A stretch of DNA of 24,561 bases, from contig JBDRZZ010000026.1 of assembly GCA_039804165.1 (NCBI GenBank), forward strand, positions 1 to 24,561. The letters run 5' to 3'. This document shows, piece after piece, positions 11,317 to 15,399 of the stretch (position 1 is its first letter; the number at the start of each line of letters is the position of its first letter). This DNA comes from a candidate division WOR-3 bacterium (GTDB lineage Bacteria; Hydrothermota; UBA3072). Made by a program: the position numbers and the translations under genes. The notes below the pieces were generated by a model. The model did not search any database, had not been told where the DNA came from, and saw only the letters and a list, made by a program, of their open reading frames with translations.

Positions 11317-12384
11317 TTAACCCCTCGCCAAAGAAGCTTCAAATAAATTTGGATTAGAGGCTTTTGAAAGAGCTTCTTCGTAATCCACAAGACCTCTAAG
11401 ATATAGATCCTTTAGATAATCATCAAGTAACTTCATTCCAAATTGTCCACCTGCTTTTATTATGTTATAAATTTGCTCCACCTTACCTTCCCTAATTGCA
11501 TTCGCCACTCCTTTTGTGCCTATAAGTATTTCGAAAGCTGCAATCATCCCTTTGCCATCTTTTCTTCTTAGTAATGTTTGAGAGATTACAGCTCTAATTG
11601 TTGAAGCAAATTGAACTCTAATTTGATGTTGATGTTCTGGCTCAAAAACATCTACTATTCTATCCACAGTTTGTGGGGCATCTGGGGTGTGAAGTGTTGC
11701 AAAAACAAGAGCTCCCATCTCTGCCGCATTAAGAGCTCTTTCTATTGTTTCTCTATCTCTCATCTCCCCTACCATTATCACGTCTGGGGTCTGACGCATA
11801 ACTCTTTTTAAAGCTTCTTCAAAAGAGTTCGTATCTACTCCTATTGCTCTTTGCTCAATTACGCTTTTCTTGTCTTCAAAAACGTATTCAATTGGATCCT
11901 CTATTGTTACAATGTGCTTTTTCTGTGTGAGGTTTATCTCTTCAATCATAGCTGCAAGGGTGGTGGATTTCCCTGCACCTGTTGGTCCTGTTACAAGAAC
12001 AAAGCCATGGGTAGAAAGAGCAATCTCTTTGAGAATCTCTGGCATTTTCCATTCATCTATTGTCTTGACTTTTAAGGGGATAACCCTAACTGCTACACCT
12101 ATTTTCCCTCTTTGGAGAAAAACGTTCATTCTAAATCTAGAAATTCCTGGAAGTTCATAAGAAATATCAAGCTCCCATTCTTTTTTGAACCTCTCTATTT
12201 GTTCTTCGGTCATTATTTCAAAAATTAGTTCTTTAATTTCTTCTAAGGAAAAAGGTTTGTAATTTTCTAATCTTTTTAACTCTCCTTGAATTCTTACAAC
12301 AGGAGGTTCGTCTACTTTAAGGTGAAGATCTGAACCTCCAAGCTTTACAACCTCATTTAAATATTTTTCAATTTTTGCAGCCAT
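11317..12384 (-). CDS. PilT/PilU-type ATPase, first copy
   Basis: A 355-residue secretion ATPase related to the neighbouring copy. Walker A is GPTGAGKST (133-141), the Asp box is IEDPIEYVFE, Walker B is VIMVGEMRD (202-210), and ATLHT (229-233) is the His box. The retraction signature is altered to GVANAIREGKVEQIY, so this copy may be a PilU-like accessory ATPase instead of the main motor, as in the pilT-pilU tandems of proteobacteria; this is inference from order and sequence. The ATG is 15 nt after the tRNA-Arg 3' end, with AAAGGA as the ribosome-binding site in that gap. No separate promoter is visible, so the transcript should include HU and the tRNA. Confidence 0.85.
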   Translation of the reverse strand: MAAKIEKYLNEVVKLGGSDLHLKVDEPPVVRIQGELKRLENYKPFSLEEIKELIFEIMTEEQIERFKKEWELDISYELPGISRFRMNVFLQRGKIGVAVRVIPLKVKTIDEWKMPEILKEIALSTHGFVLVTGPTGAGKSTTLAAMIEEINLTQKKHIVTIEDPIEYVFEDKKSVIEQRAIGVDTNSFEEALKRVMRQTPDVIMVGEMRDRETIERALNAAEMGALVFATLHTPDAPQTVDRIVDVFEPEHQHQIRVQFASTIRAVISQTLLRRKDGKGMIAAFEILIGTKGVANAIREGKVEQIYNIIKAGGQFGMKLLDDYLKDLYLRGLVDYEEALSKASNPNLFEASLARG

Positions 12385-12399
12385 TTATCCTTTCAAAAA

Positions 12400-12472
12400 T
12401 ACACCCGAAAGGACTCGAACCTTCAACCTTCCCGGCCGGAGCGGGACGCTCTATCCATTGAGCTACGGGTGT
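12400..12472 (-). tRNA. tRNA-Arg (anticodon CCG)
   Basis: The 73-nt sequence folds as a canonical cloverleaf. The acceptor stem ACACCCG/CGGGTGT is perfect, the D arm is GCTC/GAGC, the anticodon stem is TCCCG/CGGGA with the loop CTCCGGC (anticodon CCG, decoding CGG), a 5-nt variable loop follows, and the T arm is GAAGG/CCTTT with a TTCGAGT loop. The discriminator is A and CCA is not encoded. The 5' end overlaps the last ten bases of the HU gene on the same strand: the HU stop TAG is tRNA nucleotides 8-10. It has no obvious promoter of its own and so is probably processed from the HU-pilT transcript. Confidence 0.97.
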
Positions 12473-12771
12473 AAATTTTTGGAAAAATCTTTATTTTCTA
12501 CCTCTCTTTTTAACACTTTAGAAGGCTTAAAGGAAGGTAACCACCTCCCAGGGATTTTCACTTCTACATTCGTTTTTGGATTTCTCCCTATTCTACTTTT
12601 ACGAAATTTGTTTTCAAAAACACCGAATCCTCTGAATTCAATTCTGCTATTAGTATAATAAACTTCTTTAATTTCTTCGAGGAAAGCTTCTATTACTGTT
12701 CTTACTTCTTTTACTGGAATTCCAGTCCCTTTTGAAATATTAAGGACAATATCTGCTCTCGTTTTTGTCAT
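12463..12771 (-). CDS. HU/IHF-family DNA-binding protein
   Basis: A 102-residue nucleoid-associated protein that dimerises and bends DNA. The helical base (1-45) begins MTKTRADIVLNISKGTGI, and the family signature RGFGVFENKFRKSRIGRNP and VKIPGRWLPSFKPSKVLK form the DNA-embracing arms. HU proteins normally end shortly after FKPSKxLK; here about 12 extra residues (EVENKDFSKNLHP) extend into the tRNA-Arg gene, where the stop lies. The start has AAAGGAGG about 6 nt upstream. The promoter is at 12828-12856, with a perfect palindrome at the transcription start, so autoregulation is possible. It is the first gene of a transcript that continues into the tRNA, the two pilT-type genes and the Omp85 gene. 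HU versus IHF cannot be decided. Confidence 0.93.
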   Translation of the reverse strand: MTKTRADIVLNISKGTGIPVKEVRTVIEAFLEEIKEVYYTNSRIEFRGFGVFENKFRKSRIGRNPKTNVEVKIPGRWLPSFKPSKVLKREVENKDFSKNLHP

Positions 12772-12812: not shown

Positions 12813-12826
12813 TTACTTATAAGTAA
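12813..12826. promoter_or_regulatory. 14-bp perfect palindrome at the HU transcription start (possible operator)
   Basis: TTACTTATAAGTAA is a perfect two-fold palindrome directly downstream of the -10 box of the HU promoter, so it covers the expected start site. Such placement suits a repressor site. No regulator is identifiable; autoregulation by HU or another dimeric repressor is a guess. Confidence 0.4.
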
Positions 12827-12827
12827 G

Positions 12828-12856
12828 TATATAAACAAAAAATAAAGTAATGTCAA
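12828..12856 (-). promoter_or_regulatory. Promoter of HU-tRNA-pilT-omp85 transcript
   Basis: On the minus strand TTGACA (12851-12856), a 17-bp spacer and TATATA (12828-12833). Transcription would start near 12821, giving a leader of about 50 nt with AAAGGAGG before the HU ATG. Confidence 0.7.
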
Positions 12857-12860
12857 GGGG

Positions 12861-14018
12861 TTATTTTTTCTTTATCTCTTCTTTTAAAAGTTCGCTCGCT
12901 ATAACAAGTTTTTGTATTTCGTTAGTTCCTTCGTAAATTTGAGTAATTTTTGCATCTCTCATCATTTTCTCTACAGGATAGTCTTTCATATACCCATAAC
13001 CCCCAAAGACTTGTATTGCTTCAATCGTCACTTCCATTGCTACATCAGAAGCAAATAGCTTTGCCATTGAAGATTCTTTAGAAATTCTCTTTCCTCCTCC
13101 ATCTATATACCTTGCAACCTGGTAAGTCAAAGCTCTTGCTGCTTCTACTTTTGTTGCCATTTCCGCAAGTTTAATCTGAATAGCCTGAAATTCACCAATC
13201 TTTTTCCCAAATTGTTTTCTTGTATTTGCATAAGAAACAGCTTCTCTTAAGGCACCTTCTGCTATCCCAACCGCCTGAGCTGCTACACCCACTCGAGAAT
13301 TATCAAATGTTTTCATAGCTACCATAAAACCAGCACCTTCTCTTCCTATTAAATTTTCTTTGGGGACTTTACAATTTGTAAAGACAAGCTCCCTTGTGGC
13401 AGCCGCTCTTATCCCTAGTTTGTCCTCTTCTTTACCGAAAGAAAATCCTTCGTAACCTTTCTCTACAATTATTGCAGATAGTCCTCTTATACCTCTCTCT
13501 GGATCTGTAGAGACAATAACACAATATATATCAGCTTCTCCTGCGTTAGAAATAAATATTTTATTCCCATTCAAAATATAATAATTCCCGTCATCTTTTG
13601 CTTTAAGTTTTACATTCCCTGCATCAGAACCAGCCTCTGGCTCAGTTAAGGCAAAGGCAGCCCATTTTTCTCCTCTTCCTATTAATGGTAGATATTTCTT
13701 TTTCTGGTCTTCGCTTCCGAAAAGGATTATTGGTATTGCTCCAAGGCCGTTCGCGGCATAAGCTGTTGCTACTCCTCCATCCACAATAGAAATTTCTTCT
13801 ATAGCAAGACACATCCCAAACATTCCCATCCCTAGGCCTTCATATTCCTCAGGGATAAAAACTCTTAAAAGATCAGATCTACCTAATTCTTCCTTAATTT
13901 CTGGAGCGAGTTTACTTTCTCTATCCATCTTCTCTCTTAAGGGCTTTATTTTCTCTTCTGCGATGGCTCTTGCGACTTCCTTTATCATTTGTTGTTCTTC
14001 GGTAAGATTATAATCCAT
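12861..14018 (-). CDS. Acyl-CoA dehydrogenase (short-chain/butyryl-type)
   Basis: A 385-residue flavoprotein that oxidises short acyl-CoA to enoyl-CoA and passes electrons to ETF, or runs in the crotonyl-CoA direction in fermenters. It starts MDYNLTEEQQMIKE, and contains FALTEPEAGSDAG (FAD and substrate binding), FISNAGEADIY, RVGVAAQAVGIAEGAL, YANTRKQFGKKI, FGGYGYMKDYPVEKMMRDAKI and the catalytic Glu in QIYEGTNEIQ near residue 363. The open frame runs back to 14123, but the ATG at 14018 has an ideal AAAGGAGG and matches family N termini, so the extra 35 codons are rejected. It follows the methyltransferase gene by 38 nt and probably shares its promoter. No ETF or thiolase genes are in the window. 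Confidence 0.93.
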   Translation of the reverse strand: MDYNLTEEQQMIKEVARAIAEEKIKPLREKMDRESKLAPEIKEELGRSDLLRVFIPEEYEGLGMGMFGMCLAIEEISIVDGGVATAYAANGLGAIPIILFGSEDQKKKYLPLIGRGEKWAAFALTEPEAGSDAGNVKLKAKDDGNYYILNGNKIFISNAGEADIYCVIVSTDPERGIRGLSAIIVEKGYEGFSFGKEEDKLGIRAAATRELVFTNCKVPKENLIGREGAGFMVAMKTFDNSRVGVAAQAVGIAEGALREAVSYANTRKQFGKKIGEFQAIQIKLAEMATKVEAARALTYQVARYIDGGGKRISKESSMAKLFASDVAMEVTIEAIQVFGGYGYMKDYPVEKMMRDAKITQIYEGTNEIQKLVIASELLKEEIKKK

Positions 14019-14056
14019 ATTACCTCCTTTAAAGTTATTTGTTGTTCTATAAAATT

Positions 14057-14935
14057 TCAAGATTGGCTTTCTTTTAAAATCAAGCTTGATAAAATCTTTA
14101 TGTGTTCTGGAGTTGTTCCGCAACAGCCTCCAATAAGTGTTGCTCCTCTTTTATAACATTCAAGGGTAGAAATAGCAAAATTTTCAGGGTTCATATAAAA
14201 AGTCTTTCCTTCTCTTATTTCTGGCTTACCAGCATTTGGCTCGGCTATTATAGGTAAAGAGGTCATATTTTTGAAAATAGAAACCACATTAGCCATCTCT
14301 AAAGGTGTGAGTTCTCCACAATTGGTTCCTATTATATCTGCTCCTTCTTTAGATAGTTGTAAGGCACAATCCCTAACAGAATCCCCCATTATTGTTCTCC
14401 CTCCATTTTTATCTGTATGAAAACTCATTGATACAATAGTAGGAAGATTCGAAGTATCCTTACAAGCACGTAAGGCCCAAATACCCTCTCGGAGATCAGT
14501 GATTGTCTCGATTATAAAACCATCCACCCCTTCTTCTAAAAGATATGAAGCTTGTTCTTTAAAGGCTTCGTAAAAATCTTTCTCTTTATAAGATCCATAA
14601 GGCTCAAGTAATTGTCCTGTAGAGCTAATATTCCCAAGAATAAAAACTTTATCCTGAGCTGCAGTTTTTGCAAGAAAGACGCCCTTTCTATTTACTTCTT
14701 CTACTTCAATCTTTAAATCGTGAGTTTGGATGTAGATTCTATTCATTCCGAAAGTATTTGTTATTATAGCATGACTTCCTGCATTTATATAGTCTTTATG
14801 GATCTCTATTACTTTTTCGGGATTAATGAGATTACTTCTTGGACCTCCGGGAGAACCTCTTCTTTCTAATTCTGTTCCCATTGCGCCATCCAAAATAACA
14901 AAATTGTTTTTCTTGATAAAATCTAAAAAATTCAT
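14057..14935 (-). CDS. Homocysteine S-methyltransferase-domain protein (MetH N-terminal-like)
   Basis: A 292-residue stand-alone Hcy methyltransferase barrel. It starts VILDGAMGTELERRG, the family N terminus, and has the three zinc-ligand cysteines in GTNCGEL (Cys206) and GGCCGTTPEH (Cys271, Cys272), which activate the homocysteine thiol. It equals the first module of MetH only: the folate, cobalamin and reactivation modules are missing. It could work with a separate corrinoid protein, as in split methionine synthases, or use S-methylmethionine. The ATG has AAAGGA in front and a promoter at 14950-14977. Coupling to an acyl-CoA dehydrogenase downstream is unexpected for methionine synthesis. 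Domain certain, methyl donor unknown. Confidence 0.88.
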   Translation of the reverse strand: MNFLDFIKKNNFVILDGAMGTELERRGSPGGPRSNLINPEKVIEIHKDYINAGSHAIITNTFGMNRIYIQTHDLKIEVEEVNRKGVFLAKTAAQDKVFILGNISSTGQLLEPYGSYKEKDFYEAFKEQASYLLEEGVDGFIIETITDLREGIWALRACKDTSNLPTIVSMSFHTDKNGGRTIMGDSVRDCALQLSKEGADIIGTNCGELTPLEMANVVSIFKNMTSLPIIAEPNAGKPEIREGKTFYMNPENFAISTLECYKRGATLIGGCCGTTPEHIKILSSLILKESQS

Positions 14936-15018: not shown

Positions 15019-15048
15019 AAATAGATTTTTTAATGCTTGATTCTAAAA

Positions 15049-15399
15049 ATGGGGAAGAAATTTGGTCTTAAAAGAAAGGAATGGATGATCCAAGATGGGG
15101 AGAGGATAAAAGAGGTTTACAAAAAAGGGGTTGCTTTTGAAGGAGATTATACTTATATCTATTATTTGGAAGATGAGGAGAAAAAATTCTCTATTAGAGT
15201 TGAGAAAGGAGTAAAGGGTGGTGTGAGAAGAAATAAATTGAGAAGATGGTTAAGAGAAATCGTAAGGCAAGCAAACCCTCTTCTTAAAAATGGACATTAT
15301 ATAATTGAAGGAAAAAAAAGGGCTTTAGAGAGCACCTATAATGAGATTAAGGAAGATTTTGAAAAGATATGCTTAAGAGGAAATTTATGGTTAAGATAA
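15049..15399 (+). CDS. rnpA: Ribonuclease P protein component
   Basis: A 116-residue basic protein that helps the RNase P RNA cut tRNA 5' leaders. [13 protein letters not shown] at the start fits the family pattern (KKFRLKKxxDF), [14 protein letters not shown] is the central strand, and [15 protein letters not shown] is the RNR signature helix. A TTG at 15037 would add four residues, but the ATG at 15049 fits homologues better. Neither has a good Shine-Dalgarno. rpmH (ribosomal protein L34), almost always just upstream, is absent: only 113 nt separate this start from the divergent gene. The gene overlaps yidD. Confidence 0.93.

Follow-up and report, generated by a model that had tools for sequence, protein, structure and literature searches.

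The gene for an HU/IHF-family DNA-binding protein of a candidate division WOR-3 bacterium runs into the tRNA-Arg(CCG) gene that follows it on the same strand and takes its stop codon from the tRNA sequence. The overlap lies in a stretch of 24,561 nucleotides, analysed here as a whole and referred to as the window (Table 1). In the most probable reading, to which we assign a probability of about 0.8, a promoterless tRNA for a rare codon would ride on the HU mRNA, its sequence would have caught the reading frame after loss of the original stop, and the nonstop mRNA left by tRNA maturation would be passed to tmRNA. This reading draws on the overlap itself, homology, a one-base difference from a sister genome, further genes arranged in the same way, the missing promoter at the distance usual for tRNAs, and the occurrence of RNase P RNA, tmRNA and SmpB. 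From these sequence data we infer which way the base changed, that gene and tRNA share one transcript, and how translation, cleavage and rescue follow one another on it. The source genome (G000; approximately 2 Mb, a draft in 49 contigs) was placed in candidate division WOR-3 by a homologue search of 100 relatives and by the named record of its sister species, whose genome (G001) is the only other one compared from the same genus.

Table 1. Coordinates of the HU-tRNA overlap and of neighbouring features in the window.
Feature	Position	Strand	Basis
PilT-like ATPase gene	11317..12384	-	ORF list; name by sequence inspection
tRNA-Arg(CCG), intact cloverleaf, no encoded CCA	12400..12472	-	Rfam RF00005, ARAGORN
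HU/tRNA overlap, 10 nt; HU stop is U8-A9-G10 of the tRNA	12463..12472	-	Sequence
HU/IHF-family DNA-binding protein gene, 102 codons	12463..12771	-	ORF list; Pfam PF00216; homologues in 97 of 100 relatives
Probable shared promoter, TTGACA (12856..12851), 17 nt, TATATA (12833..12828)	12828..12856	-	Sequence; counterparts upstream of HU in relatives
Probable rnpA, RNase P protein subunit; nearby, outside the overlap	15037..15399	+	Sequence inspection, position before yidC

The HU gene is preceded by a strong Shine-Dalgarno sequence, AAAGGAGG, and its product matches PF00216 over residues 4-91 (E 2.4e-24, Pfam). Neither an HU nor an IHF equivalog-level cutoff is reached, and the protein is best described as HU-like. 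On the minus strand the frame ends AAA GAT TTT TCC AAA AAT TTA CAC CCG TAG, with TTA CAC CCG as last sense codons and TAG as stop. The final CAC CCG TAG (12471..12463) corresponds to nucleotides 2-10 of tRNA-Arg(CCG), and the last ten bases of the gene, ACACCCGTAG, are nucleotides 1-10. The tRNA scores 66 bits against RF00005 over the full model (gathering threshold 29, Rfam), is nearly identical in alignments of five family members, and is placed by ARAGORN at 12473..12399, that is, with one additional U-A pair. The sequence, both tRNA calls and the HU ORF thus confirm the sequence-only reading, in which the HU stop had been located within the same-strand tRNA. Its proposal that RNase P would cut inside a Leu codon also holds, the expected site between 12473 and 12472 falling between bases 2 and 3 of that codon. 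In contrast, its suggestion that the HU C terminus had grown by about 12 residues into the tRNA has to be abandoned, as the overlap adds three residues (LHP) by one base change. Since HU is 96-99 aa long in five other family members, the family as a whole has the long tail, which is thus no product of the overlap, and LHP alone stems from the new overlap; the C terminus could matter in some way invisible to sequence analysis.

Downstream, the ATG of the PilT-like gene lies 15 nt past the 3' end of the tRNA, so that HU, tRNA-Arg(CCG) and pilT form one compact row. A sequence scan found no terminator-like site between the tRNA and the PilT-like gene, which places the tRNA inside an operon. A long leader-trailer hairpin between the HU tail and the tRNA trailer (12385-12520), lengthening the acceptor stem and covering the pilT Shine-Dalgarno sequence, was considered as an explanation and dropped, being weak against shuffles and not conserved in relatives. 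Elsewhere in the window, an acyl-CoA dehydrogenase ORF read from its first TTG shares 67 nt with the upstream methyltransferase ORF (12861-14123 and 14057-14935), and its real start is likely a later ATG.

Comparison with relatives indicates how the overlap could have arisen. In the sister genome, HU is 99 aa long and ends GAA GAT TAA, the last A of the stop being nucleotide 1 of the tRNA, and the bases downstream of this TAA, CACCCGTAG, are identical to those of the window. Over the same stretch the alignment is gapless, and the decisive codon, TTA in the window and TAA in the sister, differs by one base. Within the family the distance from the HU stop to the tRNA is -10 (window), -1 (sister), 0, +1, +3 and +9 nt. 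As HU terminates ahead of or at the tRNA in the other members, the simpler direction is a stop lost in the window lineage, where TAA has probably changed to TTA, after which the tRNA's own TAG would end translation. Conservation of the overlap, put forward as a check on the original proposal, is borne out for the tight HU-tRNA linkage, which is kept, but not for the exact stop position, which drifts, the overlap coming and going.

Alternatively, the difference from the sister could stem from a fault in assembly or consensus calling, and HU would in truth stop at TAA as in that genome. A single base decides the matter, the genome is a draft and the sister does carry TAA, yet the difference is a substitution in a gapless alignment and not a homopolymer indel, the genome has two further, independent and longer overlaps and its relatives have many, and even with TAA the last base of the stop would belong to the tRNA. 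We therefore consider such an error very unlikely as an explanation. A sequencing error hiding an earlier HU stop had been named at the outset as something that could overturn the overlap; the gapless alignment makes a frame error unlikely, while a single-base consensus error is possible.

In many other families tRNA-Arg(CCG) follows HU after a phosphoesterase-like gene or a gene of 29-31 aa with a match to the bS22 protein in solved ribosome structures (E 3.5e-8). The final stop in these families is often at most 10 nt from the tRNA, with some 35-240 nt off, and in four genomes (G006, G007, G008 and G020) the final base of the bS22-like stop is nucleotide 1 of tRNA-Arg(CCG). Close linkage is thus ancient, and the gene preceding the tRNA has been exchanged. 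The bS22-like gene between HU and the tRNA, seen at loci L007, L017, L020 and others, is absent from this locus in the family of the window.

The arrangement recurs in other genes. In the window genome the tadA stop is nucleotides 12-14 of tRNA-Ser(CGA), a 14-nt overlap, and the pcm stop is nucleotides 8-10 of tRNA-Pro(CGG), a 10-nt overlap; TadA lies above the NCBIfam TadA cutoff and Pcm was identified by Pfam/NCBIfam profiles, the Pfam check covering the proteins of this genome and the frames of other genomes being judged by eye or homology. Eight genomes from five families (G000, G001, G006, G007, G009, G017, G020 and G026) end pcm at U8-A9-G10, and three (G002, G004 and G005) place its stop 2-4 nt ahead of the tRNA. 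Overlap of tadA with tRNA-Ser(CGA) is likewise found in eight genomes, with the stop at nucleotides 12-14 in five of them, at about 20-22 in G007 (where ARAGORN counts one extra base), at 22-24 in G020, and at 45-47 in G009, whose tRNA reads CGA at 12-14 in place of TGA. Since these stops differ in position and span all three reading frames, the end of tadA is set by the tRNA sequence and not by the protein. Also, the rdgB frame of G009 and G020 enters tRNA-Pro(TGG), and that of four other genomes stops 3-9 nt short of it. The linkage of HU, pcm, tadA and rdgB with their tRNAs lasts across families, with the stop moving in and out of the tRNA.

In many loci tRNA-Ser(CGA) is directly downstream of tadA (in the window genome on contig C2, near 127010-127626; L053, L125), and in 14 of 24 WOR-3 tadA loci tRNA-Arg(ACG), the tRNA edited by bacterial TadA, immediately precedes the gene, at a distance of about 40 nt or less (L126-L146). 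The gene thus has a tRNA on either side, and one of the two is its substrate.

A census of 254 tRNAs in six WOR-3 genomes, in which upstream frames of at least 70 aa were scored as entering, gave 17 tRNAs entered by an upstream frame, or 16 without one false case, namely a frame of 79 aa in G020 that reaches into tRNA-Thr(GGT) and was rejected as translated upstream tRNA genes. With that frame excluded, each genome has between one and five overlaps among 37-47 tRNAs; these base rates come from WOR-3 alone and do not rank the phylum against other bacteria. C34 is present in 13 of the 17 overlapped tRNAs (one of the 17 spurious) versus 82 of the 237 others, in genomes that are related, and the association, five of seven by distinct gene-tRNA pairs, is only suggestive. 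The census also points to why a tRNA can catch a frame: the frame starting at nucleotide 2 meets a stop at nucleotides 8-10 in 161 of the 254 tRNAs, so that the tRNA supplies a stop when the upstream gene loses its own. In the remaining two frames the first stop lies deeper, and about one third of the tRNAs have none there.

The tRNAs entered or closely approached by a gene differ from the rest in their upstream sequence. Spacing between upstream frame and tRNA in the six genomes is bimodal, few tRNAs falling at 10-30 nt. A TTGAC near -40 together with a TATAAT-like box around -16 is common ahead of roomy tRNAs and missing from tight ones; the median -10-like score is 1.65 for tight tRNAs against 4.12 for the others, and a good box is found in 1 of 27 against 58 of 154. 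This contrast holds against shuffles of each tRNA's own sequence, the P values being optimistic as the genomes are related. The probable promoter upstream of HU is missed by a strict promoter scan because its -10 ends in A. With a tight tRNA that shows no promoter at the usual distance and an HU gene whose probable promoter is conserved, the HU transcript is the expected source of tRNA-Arg(CCG). A perfect 14-bp palindrome, TTACTTATAAGTAA, is situated at the expected HU transcription start (12813-12826) and is a possible operator; its exact form is missing from the sister genome.

A separate promoter supplying the tRNA had been named as a finding that would speak against the proposal. None is present at the usual distance, but a 10/12 promoter-like match occurs inside the HU gene at 12617..12590, from which some tRNA-Arg(CCG) could start. 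If this were the main source, HU mRNA and tRNA would be mainly separate RNAs with little effect on HU. We regard this as quite unlikely: the scan of HU gives one promoter-like site where shuffles give a mean of 2.0, promoters of other tRNAs lie approximately 15-40 nt upstream and tight tRNAs have none there, and full-length HU transcripts, passing no terminator, would still contain the tRNA.

With cotranscription, ribosomes would complete HU inside a tRNA that is still unfolded, and a ribosome ending at nucleotides 8-10 would sit on the acceptor strand and on a portion of the D arm, which would delay folding. Once free of ribosomes, the tRNA would fold and RNase P would release it by cutting at its 5' end, leaving an HU message without a stop, the remainder of which could be cleared by tmRNA/SmpB. 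The required components are encoded in the same genome, with an RNase P RNA, a tmRNA of 194 bits (tag GNLNYAMAA) and an SmpB of 198 bits. The claim of the sequence-only reading that cleavage yields a nonstop HU mRNA is accordingly backed by the layout, the promoter gap and these factors, the cleavage step itself being predicted. Its further claim that tRNA maturation and HU translation are mutually exclusive does not follow, as one RNA may be translated many times and cut later, which would amount to competition in time. The same logic should apply to the sister, where the cut would remove the third base of the stop, and not to relatives with a stop before the tRNA. As the nonstop feature is gained and lost among close relatives, it appears to be tolerated rather than required.

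The arrangement may be permitted by low codon demand. The codons of the three overlapped tRNAs of the genome are very rare, with CGG 5, CCG 13 and TCG 19 among the 7220 codons counted in the window, so the load on rescue is probably small. The genome also encodes the U34 tRNAs Arg TCG, Pro TGG and Ser TGA, which by general wobble rules can read CGG, CCG and TCG as well.

It is also conceivable that the overlap is a regulatory device, in which ribosomes on HU, tadA and pcm keep the tRNA unfolded, RNase P destroys the message, and tmRNA degrades the unfinished product, giving mutual control of protein yield and tRNA supply. The tight linkage kept across families while intergenic sequence changes, the tadA overlap in different frames, the presence of the required factors, and the position of TadA, which edits a tRNA, between two tRNAs are all compatible with such control. 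However, close relatives stop just before the tRNA (0 to +9), the linkage survives without the nonstop feature, the stop position tracks whichever stop the tRNA holds, and nothing evident connects HU, Pcm and RdgB with the reading of CGG, CCG or TCG codons, which leaves regulation improbable. It is similarly unlikely that in WOR-3 the mRNA lifetime and yield of HU, TadA, Pcm and, in some lineages, RdgB are set by RNase P removing the stop and sending ribosomes to tmRNA, as a rescue-dependent form of tRNA punctuation. We favor instead the passive reading, in which rare-codon tRNAs without promoters travel on mRNAs and lost stops would be caught by tRNA sequence.

On this evidence, a bacterial tRNA can act as built-in terminator for the reading frame ahead of it, and does so repeatedly, at several genes of a single phylum; the conflict between tRNA maturation and translation on one RNA becomes directly testable. 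Also, under annotation rules that bar overlap between a CDS and a tRNA, HU, TadA and Pcm of these genomes would be lost or shortened; the default of Prokka forbids a protein gene overlapping a tRNA. Titles and abstracts from a partly covered literature yielded no study of bacterial stop codons located within a downstream tRNA, and no report of frames ending there as a repeated feature of bacterial genomes.

Among known arrangements, overlaps between coding sequences of -1 and -4 nt (ATGA type) are common in the window and comparable in size, but here the second gene encodes a tRNA, and maturation of that tRNA would physically break up the reading frame ahead of it. In Escherichia coli, the secG-leuU transcript, whose processing by RNase P was reportedly the subject of work by Mohanty and Kushner in 2008, likewise carries a tRNA immediately after a protein gene, with the tRNA cut from a common RNA. 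There, however, a 14-nt gap separates gene and tRNA, and cleavage leaves a complete frame, whereas here the frame ends inside the tRNA. The closest parallel is the tRNA punctuation of animal and fungal mitochondria, in which messages are bounded by tRNAs and split by tRNA-processing enzymes (PMC4394434). As in those genomes, bases of a stop codon can be common to the tRNA, the stop of the sister being divided into TA before the tRNA and A within it. In contrast to them, the present case concerns a bacterial genome of approximately 2 Mb with a bacterial RNase P RNA and few tRNAs so placed, most WOR-3 messages not being bounded by tRNAs, and in place of a stop completed by poly(A), of which there is no sign here, tmRNA is available.
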